Shown: positions 29,922-36,139 of the stretch, piece by piece
How the letters are laid out: each line of letters starts with the position of its first letter
How positions within the stretch are numbered: the stretch's first letter is position 1
Source: Meridianimarinicoccus sp. MJW13
Lineage (GTDB): Bacteria; Pseudomonadota; Alphaproteobacteria; Rhodobacterales; Rhodobacteraceae
DNA: 64,000 nt
Direction of reading: 5' to 3'
NCBI RefSeq assembly: GCF_014901205.1
Contig: NZ_JACNMU010000002.1
Coordinates: forward strand, 124,001 to 188,000
The notes under the pieces: generated by a model
Told to the model about the DNA's origin: nothing
Seen by the model: only the letters and a program-made list of their open reading frames with translations
Database searches by the model: none
Made by a program: the position numbers and the translations under genes

Positions 29922-30590
29922 ATGTCGAACATTGCTGGCAAAGCCTATGCAATGAACGTGGTGACGCCGAGCAAACCGCGGGTCACCTGGCTCAACCGGT
30001 TGATCTTCATGGTGGCGCGCGGTGTGCCCAAGGTGTTGAGCGGGCTTCTGGGCCTGTCGCTGATCCATTTTGCGCGCTGGATCGTCATCAAGCGTGATCA
30101 ATGGCCGGATCTGGGGCAGGGCAAGCAGGATATTCAGAACGACTATGTGCTGTTCTGTTCGAACTTCAACGGCACCTGGGACCAGTACATCGATGCCTTT
30201 TCAGACGGGATTCCCAACGGCCTGAACCTGTTCTGGTATTCGGCCACCAAGTATCCGCAGTCGATCCCGGTGACCTCGTTCAAGAATTACATCACCTACA
30301 ATCAGGTCTTCAATGACTACTACTACAACGCGACGCCCGGCTCGGCGCAGCGCGATGTGAAATGCGCCATGCGGGTCTATCAGGCCATCGAGGACCTGGC
30401 CGACGCCCATGCCCGGCAAACGCCCGAGGAATTCGCCAAGACCTATACGGCGCAGCTTTTGAAAGTGCAGGGATGCCTGGGCGATCCCGGTCTGGGGCCC
30501 GTGGCCTCGATCGACACCGAACGTGCGGACACCAACCGCGCCCCTTTTGTTCACAAACTGTCGAACCTGTTCGACAGCCAGCGCACGTAA
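29922..30590 (+). CDS. unrecognised protein, first gene of the DyP-P450 operon
   Basis: 222 residues from the ATG at 29922 (MSNIAGKAYAMN), preceded by a strong G-rich ribosome-binding site (AAAGGGGGGGG). I do not recognise the family. There is no signal peptide, but residues about 26-50 (LIFMVARGVPKVLSGLLGLS) are hydrophobic and could bind a membrane. The central part is rich in aromatic residues and Asn (VLFCSNFNGTWDQYIDAFSD, then NDYYYNATPGSAQRDVKCAM), suggesting a compact enzyme or binding domain. It is followed 11 bp later by a second unknown gene and then a DyP peroxidase. Confidence 0.8.
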   Translation: MSNIAGKAYAMNVVTPSKPRVTWLNRLIFMVARGVPKVLSGLLGLSLIHFARWIVIKRDQWPDLGQGKQDIQNDYVLFCSNFNGTWDQYIDAFSDGIPNGLNLFWYSATKYPQSIPVTSFKNYITYNQVFNDYYYNATPGSAQRDVKCAMRVYQAIEDLADAHARQTPEEFAKTYTAQLLKVQGCLGDPGLGPVASIDTERADTNRAPFVHKLSNLFDSQRT

Positions 30591-30601
30591 GGAGGGGTCC
30601 G

Positions 30602-31645
30602 ATGCCGACATTCGACACTGGCCACCTGTTCCTGACTTTTCTGTCGCCGATCAAGCAAGGCTCCACCAGCGATCCCACGGGCGCCATCGTCTCCCATGAA
30701 CAGCTTGTCCGGGCGACGCTGGGGCTGTTGCCCACGGCGCTGCAATCGCCGGCCACGCAGAAAATCGGGGAAAACAGCCCCTTCGCGCGCAACCGCATGA
30801 CCCATCTGTGCCGGATGTTCGTGCTGGAAGACGCGGTCTTCAACGGGCGCAATCCCGTAGACGCGATTTGCGAGTCCCTGCAGGGCAAGGATCCGATCAA
30901 CCCGCAGCGGGTGGATCGCCTGAACTGCGCCTACCTGGTGTTCTGCGCCGATGTCGACGCGGTGATGGACGAGGGCGAATCCCTGCCTGAGGTGCTGGAT
31001 ACGGCCCTGCAGGCACGGGCGCGCGATGCCTATCTGCGCAAGCTCTGGACCACGATGGAGCCGGAACTGCGCCTGATCTATGGCAATTGCACCGGCTTTG
31101 ACGGGGTGGATTCGGGGGCCAGCTTTGCCGCCTACATGGCCAAGTGCCAGATCGAAACCACCATGCCGTTCAACGACTACTGGATCTCGCAGCCCGAGCT
31201 CAGCAACCTGCCGACCAAGCCGATGCTTGTCGCGGCGGCGATCCCGGCGGCGATTACCCTTCTGGGGCTGATCGGCGGCATTTTCGGCATGGACAAGATG
31301 TTCCTGCTGGGTTGGCTGACCGGGTGGAGCGCCTGGGGCAGCTTCTTCTGGGGCGGGCTTGTGACTGCGGCTGTGGTCTATGGGCTGTATCGCTATGTCC
31401 TGGCCAACGGGCAGAAGCCCATGCCACCGGCCAAATACGGCGATCTGCCATCGGTGCTGAAGTCGCTGTATCTGCAACAGCATTTCGCGAATTTCGTCAT
31501 CGACCAGCAAGGCCGCGATGCCGATACGCTGCACGCCGATTTCGGCGACTTCCTGAAACAGCATCGCCCCGGCAACAAGATGGCGCCCAGTCAGGCGCCC
31601 GGCGTGATCTCCATCGACGCCGCCGGCGGCGTGATAGAAGGATAG
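30602..31645 (+). CDS. unrecognised membrane protein of the DyP-P450 operon
   Basis: 347 residues from the ATG at 30602, with GGAGGGG upstream. Residues 1-200 are soluble, with several cysteines and tryptophans and no motif I can name. A membrane hairpin follows: helices at about 208-229 (MLVAAAIPAAITLLGLIGGI) and 238-264 (FFWGGLVTAAVVYGLYRYVL). The last 80 residues are again soluble. It could anchor the peroxidase and P450 to the inner membrane or handle a lipophilic substrate. Function unknown. Confidence 0.8.
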   Translation: MPTFDTGHLFLTFLSPIKQGSTSDPTGAIVSHEQLVRATLGLLPTALQSPATQKIGENSPFARNRMTHLCRMFVLEDAVFNGRNPVDAICESLQGKDPINPQRVDRLNCAYLVFCADVDAVMDEGESLPEVLDTALQARARDAYLRKLWTTMEPELRLIYGNCTGFDGVDSGASFAAYMAKCQIETTMPFNDYWISQPELSNLPTKPMLVAAAIPAAITLLGLIGGIFGMDKMFLLGWLTGWSAWGSFFWGGLVTAAVVYGLYRYVLANGQKPMPPAKYGDLPSVLKSLYLQQHFANFVIDQQGRDADTLHADFGDFLKQHRPGNKMAPSQAPGVISIDAAGGVIEG

Positions 31646-31654
31646 GGGGCCAAG

Positions 31655-33304
31655 ATGACTCGCATTCTGAATCTGGACGACATCCAGGGCAACGTCACCC
31701 GCGCCTACGGGCGCTTTTCCTTCCCCTTTGCACGCTATTTCTTCCTGCACATCGAAACCCCCGAAGCGGGCCGCAAGTTCGTCGATGCGGCGCGCCGTCG
31801 GGTCACCACCGCGACGCGCTGGACCGAGGGCACCAAGCCGCCGGTCACCTTCAACATCGGGTTCACCTTCACCGGGCTCTACATGATGGGGCTGCCGACG
31901 CGCACCCTTCAGGGCATGCCCGAGGCGTTCATCGACGGCATGAAGGCCCGCGCCTTCATCCTGGGCGACCGGGACGTGACCAAGACCGAGGAGGACGCGG
32001 GCAACTGGTGCGCCAAATGGGATCCGATCTGGCGCGACAACCGGATGCGGGGCGTCGGCGGCAAGAACGACGTTCACATCTGGATCTCGATGAACGCGCA
32101 ACTGGCCGAACCGGGGACCGACACACCAGCGCCTGAGCTGGAGGAACAGACCGACTGGCTGCGCGAGCTGTGCGCCGAACTGGACCACAAGGTCTGGATC
32201 ATGAAAACCAACGGTCAGAACGGCGGCGAGGAATACCAGGCCGCCTCGGCAGTGTTCGACACGCTGGGCGACAAGAAGATCCCCACCCCGAAAGAGCATT
32301 TCGGGATCACCGACGGCATCGGCGATCCGGTCTTCGAGGGCCAGTACCCGGAGGACAAGGAAAAGGTCGCCGTCATCGGGCGCGGCAAATGGATGAACGA
32401 AAAGGACGGCTGGCAACCACTGGCCACCGGCGAATTCATCCTCGGCCATCCCGACGAAAGCCAGGAACTGCCGCCCACGGCCCAGCCCCCCAACTTCATG
32501 CACAACGGCACCTACATGGTGTATCGCAAGCTGCACGAGAACGTTTCGACCTTCGCCGAGGTGGTGGGCGAAGAGGCCAAGACCTATGCCGCGACCATGG
32601 GCGTGGACGAAGAGGAAGCCCGCGAAACCCTGATCGCCAAGATGGTCGGGCGCTGGTCCGACGGGGTGCCGCTGGCGCGCGTGCCGACCTATGACGGATG
32701 GCGAGCCTTCCGCAAGGAAAAGGGGTTCGACGATCCCGACCCGCTGAAGGCGCTTGGCGCCATGCGGGCCTATCTGTCGTCCACGGAAGTGTCGAACTTC
32801 CGCTATGCCGACGACCTGGAAGGGTTCAAATGTCCCAACGGGGCGCACCTGCGGCGGGTGAACACGCGCGATTACCTTGATCCGCTGAACACGCCGGGCA
32901 GCAAGAACCCCAAGGCCACCACCCAGCTCAACAAGCGCCGGCGCATCCTGCGGCGGGGTCTGCCCTATGGGCCGGACCATCCCGGCGGGATGACCGACGA
33001 GACCGAGCAGGGCGTGGCTTTCATGGCGCTTGGCGCGTCTATCTTCCGGCAGTTCGAATTCGTGCAGCAGCAGTGGATTCAATACGGGCTGGACTTCAAC
33101 CAGGGCAACAACACCTGTCCGCTGCTGGGTAGCCACGAGATCCACAAGCGGCACAGCATCCCGTCGGATCCCGCCAGCGGCAAGCCGCCCTATTACATGA
33201 GCAAGCTCAAGACCTTCGTGGAAACGCGGGGGGGCGACTATTTCTTCATCCCGTCGCTGACGGCGCTGCACATGATGGCGCTTGGCATCGTCGATCCGAC
33301 CTGA
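31655..33304 (+). CDS. DyP-type heme peroxidase
   Basis: 549-residue heme peroxidase, in the size range of the long DyP classes. It starts with LNLDDIQGNVTRAYG, the usual DyP opening. The distal GXXDG motif is GITDG with Asp220. The proximal heme ligand is His398 in CPNGAHLRRVNTRD. The C-terminal FRQFEFVQQQWIQYG is also typical. There is no Tat or Sec signal, so it is probably cytosolic. DyP enzymes use H2O2 or organic peroxides to oxidise bulky substrates. Gap to the previous gene is 9 bp and to the P450 10 bp. Confidence 0.92.
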   Translation: MTRILNLDDIQGNVTRAYGRFSFPFARYFFLHIETPEAGRKFVDAARRRVTTATRWTEGTKPPVTFNIGFTFTGLYMMGLPTRTLQGMPEAFIDGMKARAFILGDRDVTKTEEDAGNWCAKWDPIWRDNRMRGVGGKNDVHIWISMNAQLAEPGTDTPAPELEEQTDWLRELCAELDHKVWIMKTNGQNGGEEYQAASAVFDTLGDKKIPTPKEHFGITDGIGDPVFEGQYPEDKEKVAVIGRGKWMNEKDGWQPLATGEFILGHPDESQELPPTAQPPNFMHNGTYMVYRKLHENVSTFAEVVGEEAKTYAATMGVDEEEARETLIAKMVGRWSDGVPLARVPTYDGWRAFRKEKGFDDPDPLKALGAMRAYLSSTEVSNFRYADDLEGFKCPNGAHLRRVNTRDYLDPLNTPGSKNPKATTQLNKRRRILRRGLPYGPDHPGGMTDETEQGVAFMALGASIFRQFEFVQQQWIQYGLDFNQGNNTCPLLGSHEIHKRHSIPSDPASGKPPYYMSKLKTFVETRGGDYFFIPSLTALHMMALGIVDPT

Positions 33305-33314
33305 GGACCGTTCC

Positions 33315-34679
33315 ATGCTGACACGGATTGCAAACCTGGTGACCGCGCCGTTGCGGGTGGTCACCGAATGGGGGCAGGGGCTGGCGGCGCTGGTCGGTCT
33401 GGCCGGGGCCGGGGTGACGGCGGCGCGCGCGCCGGGCGGCTTCAAGGCCAATGCCGGGGCGGTGTTTGCCGCGCCGGCCATGCAGCGCAGGGTCTTCGAT
33501 GCATTGCGCGCCTTCCTGCCCAACATCGGGCTCAGCCGGGTGCTGGTGAAATCCTATGACAACAACGGCACGGTGGTGGTGACCCGGCGCGCCGATGTGC
33601 TGGACGTGCTCTATCGCGATGCAGATTTCGAGGTGGTCTACGGCCCCCGGATGCGCAAGCTGACCGATGGCGACAACTTCTTTCTGGGGATGCAGCCGGG
33701 TTGGGACTACACCCGCGACACCTCGGCCATGCGGCTGGCCGCGCGGCACACCGATGTGGCCGCGATCGTTCTGCCCCGTGCCACCGAATTGGCAGCGGGC
33801 ATCGTGGCCGATAGCGAGGGTCGGCTCGATCTGCCCCCGGCGCTGACGCTGCAGGTGCCCTGGGACATGACCGACCGCTATTTCGGCACCGGCGGGCCGG
33901 ACAATGCCACCATGCAGGGCTGGACCACAACGCTGTTCTGGTACCTGTTCGGCGATCTGGGGGCCGATCCGGCGCTGGATGCGCGCGCCATGACGGCGGC
34001 GGCCGAGTTGCGCGCCTGGCTGGACGGGGCGATCGCCGCCCGCAAGGCCAGTCCGACCGAAGGGGACGACATCCTCAACCGCTGCCTGGCCCTGCAATCG
34101 GCGGAAACGCCGGGGATGAGCGATCTGGGCATCCGCAACAACCTTCTGGGCCTGCTGATCGGCGCGATCCCGACCATTTCCAAGGCCAGTTGCCTGGCGC
34201 TGGATGAGCTTCTGAACCGCCCCGAGGCCCTGGCCGAGGCGCAGGCCGCCGCCCGTGCGGGCGATGACGCCAAACTGGCCGCCTGCATCTGGGAGGCGCT
34301 GCGCTTCAACCCGCACAACCCGGTGATCTACCGCCGCGCCACCCGCGACTGCGAGATCGCCTCGGGTACCTTCCGGCGGCTGAAGGTGAAGAAAGGGCAG
34401 ATGGTCTTTGCCGCCAGCCTGTCGGCCATGTTCGACCGCGCGGCCATCGACCGGCCCGGTGCGTTCCGCACCGACCGGCGGTTCGAGGATTACATCATCT
34501 GGGGCACCGGGATGCATACCTGTTTCGGCGCCGCTATCAATGAAGCGGTGATCCCGGCGATCCTGAAGCCTGTACTGGCGCAAAAGAACCTGCGCCGGGC
34601 CGAGGGCGCGGCCGGGCAGATCGACTCCGGCGACACGCCTTTCCCGCAGCATTTCACCGTCGCCTTCGACCCCGCATAA
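33315..34679 (+). CDS. cytochrome P450 with atypical I-helix
   Basis: 454 residues from the ATG at 33315. The heme-thiolate loop is IWGTGMHTCFGAAIN with Cys403; the K-helix ExxR is Glu327-Arg330 (WEALR). The I-helix, where monooxygenases carry an acid-Thr pair in AGxDTT, reads G-A-I-P-T-I at 283-288, so the acidic residue is Pro286. No ferredoxin or reductase gene is nearby. These points suggest peroxide use or hydroperoxide rearrangement rather than O2 activation, which is inference. The N-terminal 45 residues contain a weakly hydrophobic stretch. Confidence 0.9.
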   Translation: MLTRIANLVTAPLRVVTEWGQGLAALVGLAGAGVTAARAPGGFKANAGAVFAAPAMQRRVFDALRAFLPNIGLSRVLVKSYDNNGTVVVTRRADVLDVLYRDADFEVVYGPRMRKLTDGDNFFLGMQPGWDYTRDTSAMRLAARHTDVAAIVLPRATELAAGIVADSEGRLDLPPALTLQVPWDMTDRYFGTGGPDNATMQGWTTTLFWYLFGDLGADPALDARAMTAAAELRAWLDGAIAARKASPTEGDDILNRCLALQSAETPGMSDLGIRNNLLGLLIGAIPTISKASCLALDELLNRPEALAEAQAAARAGDDAKLAACIWEALRFNPHNPVIYRRATRDCEIASGTFRRLKVKKGQMVFAASLSAMFDRAAIDRPGAFRTDRRFEDYIIWGTGMHTCFGAAINEAVIPAILKPVLAQKNLRRAEGAAGQIDSGDTPFPQHFTVAFDPA

Positions 34680-34689
34680 GGACCGTCTG

Positions 34690-35463
34690 ATGACCAAACC
34701 GCCGTTCATGGTCACCCTTCTGCCCAGTGTCGACGTGGATCTGGGGCGCTGGCTGATGCAGCTTTGGGGGGTGGCCTATACCGAGCGGCCCCACGCCCCG
34801 GTGTTCCACATCCTCGCGCTCAAGTCCCATGGGGTCGGCAAGGATGACTACCCGCTGCTGATCGACGGTGACACGAAAACCCCCACCATCGAGAAACTGG
34901 TGGCGGCCTTCGATGACAAGGCCTCCTCAGGCAACCGTCTGGTGCCCGATCCGCAGGCCGAGCCCGAACTGCATGCCGAGGTCATGGATCTGCAACACCG
35001 GATGCGCTACGACATGGGCGAGGGCACCGTGCATTGGGCCTATTTCCACTTCCTGCAACACAAGAAACTGGTCTGGCCCAGCCTGACGACCGGCGTGCCG
35101 TGGTTTGAAACGGCCTTCATGTCGCTGGGCGGCTACAGCGTCATCAAGGCCGCGATGTTCAAGGGGCTGGGGCTGGGTCCGGAAGATGCCGAAAAGGCCC
35201 TGACCCGCATCCAGGCGGCGTGGGACGAGATCGACGCGCGGCTGGCCGATGGGCGCAAGTACCTGTGCGGCGACCGCCTGACGCTGGCCGATCTGGCCTT
35301 TGCCACTTCAGGTGCGCCGATGATCGTGGCGCGCGGCTACGGCGGTCACCTGCCCGAGATGGCAGCGCTGCCCCCCGAGATGCGCGCGGTGATGGAGCCG
35401 CTGCGCGACCGGCCCGCGGGCCAGTTCATCCAGCGGATCTATGACGAGGCGCGCTTGGCCTGA
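34690..35463 (+). CDS. glutathione S-transferase-like protein
   Basis: 257 residues. The C-terminal GST helix region is clear (DGRKYLCGDRLTLADLAFAT at about 187-206). The N-terminal thioredoxin-like part is weakly conserved and has VHWAYFHFLQHKKLVW-type aromatic inserts in the middle. It may conjugate or isomerise an electrophilic product of the upstream hemoproteins, such as an epoxide or hydroperoxide. It starts 10 bp after the P450 stop and its 3' end overlaps the convergent mnhG by 25 bp. Confidence 0.8.
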   Translation: MTKPPFMVTLLPSVDVDLGRWLMQLWGVAYTERPHAPVFHILALKSHGVGKDDYPLLIDGDTKTPTIEKLVAAFDDKASSGNRLVPDPQAEPELHAEVMDLQHRMRYDMGEGTVHWAYFHFLQHKKLVWPSLTTGVPWFETAFMSLGGYSVIKAAMFKGLGLGPEDAEKALTRIQAAWDEIDARLADGRKYLCGDRLTLADLAFATSGAPMIVARGYGGHLPEMAALPPEMRAVMEPLRDRPAGQFIQRIYDEARLA

Positions 35464-35762
35464 GCCGCCGCACGGGCCGCCTTGACGCGGCGGATCTCGA
35501 CCGTGGCACGGCCGATCATATGCGCGGCGATGGGGGCAGTCAGCATCAGGAACAGGATGGTGGCCACGGCCTTTGTGGTGACGCTGGCAATTTCGAAATG
35601 CAGCGCCGCAGCGGCCAGGGTCAGCGCACTGCCCAGCGTGCCCGCCTTGGTCGAGGCATGCATCCGGTTCAGCACATCGGGCAATTTCAGCACCCCAAGC
35701 CCCGCGATGAAGGCAAAGGCGCCTCCGGTCAGGACGAGGATGCCGGCGATGATCTCGGTCAT
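35439..35762 (-). CDS. mnhG: Na+/H+ antiporter subunit MnhG/MrpG
   Basis: 107-residue membrane subunit, the last of the Mrp operon. Three hydrophobic helices with LGVLKLPDVLNRMHASTKAG, the MnhG signature. The ATG at 35762 overlaps mnhF by 4 bp. Its last 25 bp overlap the 3' end of the GST-like gene on the opposite strand. Confidence 0.93.
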   Translation of the reverse strand: MTEIIAGILVLTGGAFAFIAGLGVLKLPDVLNRMHASTKAGTLGSALTLAAAALHFEIASVTTKAVATILFLMLTAPIAAHMIGRATVEIRRVKAARAAAQAKRASS

Positions 35763-36139
35763 GACAGGTTCCTCGGGGCAGGGTCTTTCTTGGTCTGTGC
35801 CGGCTTGACGGCTTCGGCCTCCATCTGCTCGGCAGGGGGCAGGACGGGCTGTGTCGACTGCCGCAGCATCGACCGTTCGGCAAAACGGGCCAGTGCCACG
35901 GTGGCCAGAAATCCGATCAGCGCCAGCACTAGCGCCACGTCCAGAAAGGCCGAGGCTTCCGAGCGGATCGCGAAGAGCGCGCAGAAGGCCACGATCGACA
36001 CGGTCATCATGTCCAGCGCGACCACCCGATCCGAGAACGACGGTCCCTTGAACAGCCGGATGAAGCCCAGCACCAGCGAGATCATCACCAGCGTGAACCC
36101 GGCCTCGGTGCACCAATAGAAGAAGTTTTCCGGGGTCAT
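35759..36139 (-). CDS. mnhF: Na+/H+ antiporter subunit MnhF/MrpF
   Basis: 126-residue protein with three membrane helices and the MnhF core GPSFSDRVVALDMMTVSIVA. The C-terminal 40 residues are hydrophilic, Ala/Pro/Glu/Lys-rich, longer than in the typical 90-residue MnhF. It overlaps mnhE and mnhG by 4 bp each. Confidence 0.93.
   Translation of the reverse strand: MTPENFFYWCTEAGFTLVMISLVLGFIRLFKGPSFSDRVVALDMMTVSIVAFCALFAIRSEASAFLDVALVLALIGFLATVALARFAERSMLRQSTQPVLPPAEQMEAEAVKPAQTKKDPAPRNLS

Follow-up and report, generated by a model that had tools for sequence, protein, structure and literature searches.

A DyP-type peroxidase gene block as one local form of a wider bacterial module with a partner family lacking a library model

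We analysed five co-directional genes within a 64,000-nucleotide stretch of Meridianimarinicoccus sp. MJW13 (contig NZ_JACNMU010000002.1; the window), which encode, in order, two proteins that we call A and B, a DyP-type peroxidase (DyP), a cytochrome P450 (P450) and a glutathione S-transferase (GST)-like protein (Table 1). A sequence-only reading of the window had regarded them as an unusual five-gene system. The block is neither ordinary nor an artefact: it is one local form of a widespread module made up of a DyP, a partner protein and, usually, a second heme enzyme, and the partner family has no model in the libraries that we searched. Conservation of the block was upheld, but its five-gene composition is only one local form, the core being an A-like gene with a DyP gene. 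The genes of the module travel together, in places even as parts of a single long fusion gene. This suggests that they share a task on peroxides, perhaps those of lipids.

The block among close relatives

Contigs were searched with A alone as the query, taking one genome per species, and the best 80 of 250 stretches encoding a relative were retained, which tilts the sample to close relatives. According to their record titles, the source organisms include Rhodobacteraceae, Falsiroseomonas, Burkholderia, Mesorhizobium, Methylosinus and an Acidisphaera metagenome-assembled genome. Profiles detected B after A in 78 of the 80 loci, a DyP adjoining A in 76, a P450 after the DyP in 56 and a GST after the P450 in 26; in the four loci without a DyP, the sequence stops 140–883 bp past A. 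The order A-B-DyP was found in 75 loci, A-B-DyP-P450 in 55 and all five genes in 26. Twenty loci have a DyP with no P450 immediately behind it, and 17 of these are real absences (17 of the 73 loci with enough sequence), the other three (L017, L048 and L080) having been left out of the count with no more than 1.6 kb of sequence remaining. Judged from the raw locus counts, the order A-B-DyP, with or without the P450, is far beyond chance. The sequence-only reading had proposed to look for the block as a unit in other genomes, and in these 80 loci the attempt at refutation failed.

The proteins also diverge together. Among the 54 loci in which A, B, DyP and P450 are all present, the pairwise distances of each protein correlate with those of the others (Spearman 0.73–0.88). 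A is the best conserved (mean identity 71%, compared with 58% for the P450, 56% for the DyP and 47% for B), in a ranking that the A-based choice of loci may tilt somewhat towards A. Clustering of neighbouring open reading frames (ORFs) found by a crude picker gave, antisense artefacts aside, no other gene family in more than 7 of the 80 loci; the method undercounts because antisense ORFs compete in the picker, whose own yield was just 50 of the 80 loci for A and 53 for DyP.

Within the window, the gaps between the five plus-strand genes are 11, 9, 10 and 10 nt, in agreement with the 9–11-nt spacing first described, and the GST-like gene overlaps by 25 nt the 3′ end of a converging ORF (35439–36116, minus strand). 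The residues singled out at that stage, namely GITDG at 217–221 and His398 of the DyP and E327xxR330 and Cys403 of the P450, are present and are invariant or nearly so among relatives. The GST-like label applies to the C-terminal domain, which alone is recognised (Pfam GST_C_2 and GST_C); the N-terminal, thioredoxin-like domain had no Pfam match. As had been noted, no ORF for a ferredoxin, a reductase or a transporter came to light in the block; the neighbours of its relatives were clustered only, with no ferredoxin profile search. A PADLOC search of the block returned nothing at E 1.

Table 1 Genes of the block in the window
Gene	Coordinates	Strand	Basis
A (partner protein, 222 aa)	29922–30590	+	ORF; 80 relatives; no Pfam/NCBIfam family
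B (347 aa; diverged A-family member with inserted membrane stretch)	30602–31645	+	ORF; A-only and B-only profiles
DyP-type peroxidase (549 aa; D220, H398, R433)	31655–33304	+	Pfam Dyp_perox_C above cut-off
Cytochrome P450 (454 aa; E327xxR330, Cys403, Pro286)	33315–34679	+	Pfam p450 above cut-off
GST-like protein (257 aa)	34690–35463	+	Pfam GST_C_2 and GST_C above cut-off

A partner family beside the peroxidase

We detected A in 15 of 299 genomes sampled from the phylum and, by profile, in 12 of 385 genomes of the class. A DyP of the window kind occurred in 17 of 249 sampled genomes, and 16 of these 17 have an A-like neighbour beside it; the sole exception (G167, locus L151) has none within the 14 kb taken. 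Conversely, all sampled A-like loci adjoin a DyP except L126/L166, whose contig stops at the A-like ORF. The association extends to fusions (Table 2). A-like and DyP domains share one ORF in L120 and L125, and genes of 1620, 1443 and 1423 codons on three annotated plasmids, from Sulfitobacter, Novosphingobium aromaticivorans and Pararhizobium combine P450, A-like and DyP domains, with one A-like domain detected in each. The list of structure matches for a fusion model covered the DyP part only.

No family model in Pfam or NCBIfam scores above cut-off for A or B, so that the description of both as unrecognised stands; their treatment as separate orphans does not. A profile built from A alone (78 close sequences) finds a second A-like gene in L098 (E 2.8e-15), L109 (6e-15), L116 (4.8e-12), L108 (1.7e-9) and L107 (7.2e-7), and a profile built from B alone (71 close sequences) matches the same ORFs at E 4e-35 to 3e-18. 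The A profile retrieves no close B proteins and the B profile no close A proteins, and comparing the two profiles directly gives a weak result (probability 34%); the case for kinship is that both separate profiles reach the same intermediate ORFs. E-values between A and B relatives from iterated profiles are possibly circular, the separate-profile test being the clean one, and an A2–A4 comparison was set aside because the two sides had rows in common. On these profile matches we judge A and B to be members of one family and therefore not two separate orphans. Weak matches of A to a 2Fe-2S model (E 0.18) and of B to DUF202 (E 2.1) were discarded as chance. The matches of A among PDB sequences (best E 0.026 and 0.011) were discarded too, and profile comparison of A with the DyP gave no relationship.

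The membrane hairpin first proposed for B corresponds to a segment that is clearly hydrophobic from residue 206 onwards, with a less hydrophobic second half; its two-helix form comes from reading the sequence. Distant B relatives do not have the region that carries this segment, and B is a diverged A-family member with an acquired membrane stretch. In A, too, there are hydrophobic stretches, within residues 27–56. Over a set of 53 remote A-like domains that counts the B-like ones and one duplicate, the common residues are H49 (46/49), R52 (42/50), F78 (49/53), G84 (49/53) and Y89 (50/53). The AlphaFold2 (AF2) model of A (predicted local distance difference test 86.1; predicted template modelling score 0.61) contains a β-α-β-β-α domain at about residues 4–140 followed by C-terminal helices. 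This domain is predicted to be α+β-barrel-like, a fold similar to that of dimeric α+β barrel proteins (ABM, IsdG, SnoaB, NIPSNAP and mutarotases), from which A differs in its long helical C-terminus and in having no sequence match to them. Mutarotases came top in the structure comparison and were not accepted as relatives.

By its sequence, the window peroxidase is best classed as a divergent DyP. The GXXDG motif with its distal Asp, the proximal His and the distal Arg are all present, and each of the 94 DyP rows keeps D220, H398 and R433, the role of R433 being assigned by alignment to 4au9 and others. Dyp_perox_C of Pfam passes its cut-off (23.4 bits against 20), DyP_N falls short (24.6 against 27.5), as does TIGR01413 of NCBIfam (86.4 against 100.5). 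The closest solved relatives are 8re2/8re3, which match the Deinococcus radiodurans DyP (DR_A0145; L154) at E 0 over the full length and share about 30% identity with the window DyP, a figure estimated from alignments rather than computed. Like the window DyP, this enzyme has an A-like gene as its neighbour, 1 nt upstream; a catalase family gene lies 41 nt downstream. The D. radiodurans locus differs from ours in its single A-like gene, in having the catalase family gene in place of a P450 and in that no GST was seen. DR_A0146 has been described as a catalase of lower efficiency than KatE1 (PMC7143949).

On its own, the D. radiodurans DyP is inactive at pH 7.5, where it is in a six-coordinate low-spin state; its optimum for 2,2′-azino-bis(3-ethylbenzothiazoline-6-sulfonic acid) (ABTS) lies at pH 2.8, and above pH 4 it has hardly any activity (Frade et al., PMC10820274). 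These authors speculate that other proteins, for example encapsulin, govern the enzyme through interaction, and they regard the role of DyPs in the cell and their physiological substrates as unclear; the words operon and catalase are absent from the main text of their paper. With an A-like gene directly beside a DyP that is inactive at neutral pH, the A-like protein is the obvious candidate for such a governing partner. Because the partner family adjoins the DyP at nearly every locus examined, including that of the crystallised, neutral-pH-inactive enzyme, the question of the role of DyPs becomes directly testable.

The second heme enzyme and the proposed chemistry

Cys403, E327 and R330 (Cys loop and ExxR) are kept in 58 of 58 P450 rows, and the window protein scores 39.7 bits with Pfam p450 (cut-off 22.8). 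Oxygen-activating P450s carry an acid–Thr pair in the I helix, although some true monooxygenases do without it too. The acid–alcohol pair is absent from the window P450, where position 286 is Pro, followed by Thr287, in 58 of 58 rows; PDB alignments support the register of position 286 only roughly. The two other P450s of the host read AGHET and AGHEA at this site, that is, they have Glu. Among 14 remote relatives (four of them among the 58), Pro is found in 11, three of which have also lost the Thr, whereas L117 and L120 have Asp and L119 another residue. Loss of the I-helix acid thus appears typical of this P450 family, not universal.

In other loci the place of the P450 is taken by a catalase-related protein. 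Those of L103, L105, L111, L112 and L113 match each other in BLASTP at E 2e-20 or better, and Pfam Catalase matches that of L112. A profile of the five also matches ORFs in L106, L109 and L122 and annotated catalase family proteins of D. radiodurans (L154), Paracoccus yeei (L158) and Acinetobacter lwoffii (L161); it has no match in L001–L080. PDB searches with two of the catalase-related proteins returned ordinary catalases weakly or nothing. We tallied the second heme enzyme over 30 distinct A-like loci from three genome samples, with our own locus included and G167, which has no A, left out. A P450 is present in 17 (four of these being the same fusion in one genus), a catalase-related protein in 7 and neither in 5, one locus being cut; none of the 30 has both (Table 2). 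Two proteins were not credited in this tally. The long C-terminal part of a single ORF that also carries A-like and DyP domains (L125:7905–11531) shows a likeness to P450s that is confined to the heme loop (E 0.023), and its locus was entered under neither; an annotated catalase family peroxidase in L099 has no match to the catalase-related group and was left uncounted. P450s and catalase-related proteins are the two kinds of heme enzyme for which conversion of fatty-acid hydroperoxides is known (PMC13049297, PMC5617202), and their exchange in the module is our main reason for proposing hydroperoxide chemistry.

Two known kinds of system offer parallels. Fungal dioxygenase–P450 fusions (linoleate diol synthase (LDS)/Ppo) couple, and often fuse, a heme peroxidase-type enzyme to a P450, as here, and the fungal P450 may act without an electron-transfer chain (PMC13049297). 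Fungal Ppo/LDS have a cyclooxygenase (COX)-like dioxygenase, whereas the bacterial module, known here from genes alone, has a DyP and the additional A/B family. Only DyP, P450 and GST Pfam domains pass cut-off in the five proteins, with no COX-like heme dioxygenase domain among them, so the module would work like the fungal fusion yet is not one. The catalase-related allene oxide synthases and hydroperoxide lyases (AOS/HPL) that lie beside, or are fused to, a lipoxygenase (LOX) or dioxygenase in corals and Nostoc resemble the P450-less loci, where a catalase-related protein stands beside a heme oxidant. In the module, however, that oxidant is a DyP with an A-like protein, and the likeness to AOS/HPL is one of context rather than of demonstrated sequence membership. 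Searches of open-access papers in PMC, judged by titles and abstract openings, showed no description of the module or of a DyP–P450 fusion, which may exist elsewhere.

We put at about 50% the probability that the operon encodes a membrane-associated, multi-heme hydroperoxide-processing complex, in which the A/B partner, the DyP, a reductant-independent P450 and the GST act on a lipid substrate. The sequences themselves show that the genes occur together and are fused in places, that the catalytic residues are conserved, that A and B are related and that P450 and catalase-related protein replace each other; from this we infer the physical complex, the direction of flow, the hydroperoxide chemistry, the lipid substrate and the roles of A, B and GST. 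In such a scheme A and B would hold, position or activate the DyP, and B would tie the complex to the membrane. The DyP would handle a hydroperoxide or generate a substrate radical, and its product would pass to a second heme enzyme needing no electron-transfer chain, here the P450 without the I-helix acid and in other bacteria the catalase-related protein; the GST might then clear or isomerise reactive products. The substrate would most likely be an unsaturated lipid or its hydroperoxide. The comparison with Ppo and CYP74 enzymes made in the sequence-only reading fits the DyP–P450 fusions, the loss of the I-helix acid and the exchange of P450 with catalase-related proteins; what falls away is the five-gene set as the unit. 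The oxylipin-like signalling or lipid-hydroperoxide detoxification that it suggested stays a hypothesis. The fusions and the exchange indicate which enzyme probably acts next and what chemistry is probable. More tentatively, the DyP and the A-family protein may form a new lipid oxygenase/hydroperoxide core, a bacterial counterpart of COX and LOX that is coupled interchangeably to P450 or catalase-related enzymes, at the extreme within one polypeptide. If true, DyPs of this class would gain the physiological partner and role that they have lacked so far, and bacteria a route to make or clear oxidised lipids, assembled from unrelated parts.

Three other explanations deserve weight. The module might serve general detoxification of H2O2 and organic peroxides under oxidative stress, forming no defined product, with A and B as chaperones, heme-delivery factors or scaffolds. 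The GST in 26 of 80 loci and the occurrence of catalase-related proteins are in keeping with this, as are a katG gene 4 kb from the block in Granulicella and the increase of both D. radiodurans proteins after UVC/vacuum exposure (PMC5731708). For a chaperone, however, one would expect neither stronger conservation than that of the enzymes nor a place fused between a P450 and a DyP, and a P450 is not a usual scavenger; we consider detoxification rather unlikely. A more improbable arrangement is that the P450 is an ordinary monooxygenase drawing on a general cell ferredoxin, while the DyP with A and B carries out a separate oxidation in the same pathway, be it biosynthetic or catabolic. Redox partners are probably present, given the two other P450s of the host, two of the 14 remote relatives keep the I-helix Asp, and the P450 is missing from 17 of 73 loci. 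Against such a division of labour stand the Pro at the acid position in all 58 rows, the single-polypeptide fusions and the exchange of the P450 with catalase-related proteins, which need no reductant chain.

We give least credence to a module whose substrates are not lipids but, for instance, aromatics, carotenoids or polymers, on which DyPs act in vitro (substrates listed in PMC10820274). A gene for a RoxA-like cytochrome c near one A-like and DyP pair (L110:4388–5806, minus strand; no P450 or catalase-related gene) would suit it, but B has a membrane stretch and no aromatic-catabolism neighbour recurs in the crude ORF clustering, which was made without annotation.

Arrangements and neighbouring genes

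Table 2 Arrangements of the module (:: marks one ORF) and second heme enzyme among 30 A-like loci
Arrangement or class	Loci	Remark
A-B-DyP-P450-GST	L107, L115	L115 with only a weak GST match
P450-A-B-DyP	L116	
A-DyP-P450	L117, L123, L152	
A-[DyP::P450]	L119	
P450-[A::DyP]	L120	
P450 divergent from [A::A]-DyP	L121	
[P450::A::A::DyP]	L104, L148, L149, L150	single ORF; four genomes, one genus
A-B-DyP, P450 about 1 kb beyond	L164, L165	
P450 present	G000, G055, G102, G171, G194, G197, G241, G248, G260, G271, G280, G305, G432-C3, G466, G541, G578, G612	17/30
Catalase-related protein present	G070, G074, G175, G200, G235, G294, G432-C107	7/30
Neither	G052, G099, G111, G450, G594	5/30; G111 with little sequence upstream of A
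Cut	G378	1/30

Several loci carry further genes or variant forms. A tetratricopeptide repeat (TPR) protein is encoded directly upstream of P450::A::DyP fusion genes at L104:3712–5490, L160:1932–3692, L155:1997–3625 and L156:1960–3645, and Pfam finds a nucleotide-cyclase domain in two of the four; a signalling link is possible. Three consecutive A-like genes precede one DyP at L118:6367–10028 (minus strand), and a GMC oxidoreductase gene (L106:11584–13326, minus strand) lies upstream of a double A-like gene accompanied by a DyP and a catalase-related ORF. In Sinorhizobium chiapasense (L102:7359–9820), the DyP gene is followed by NIPSNAP, second A-like and DUF4331 genes. An ORF on a Sinorhizobium medicae plasmid (L157:5611–7635), with an IS630 transposase gene near it, combines an A-like domain with a DyP that is represented by its later part only, and is perhaps a remnant.

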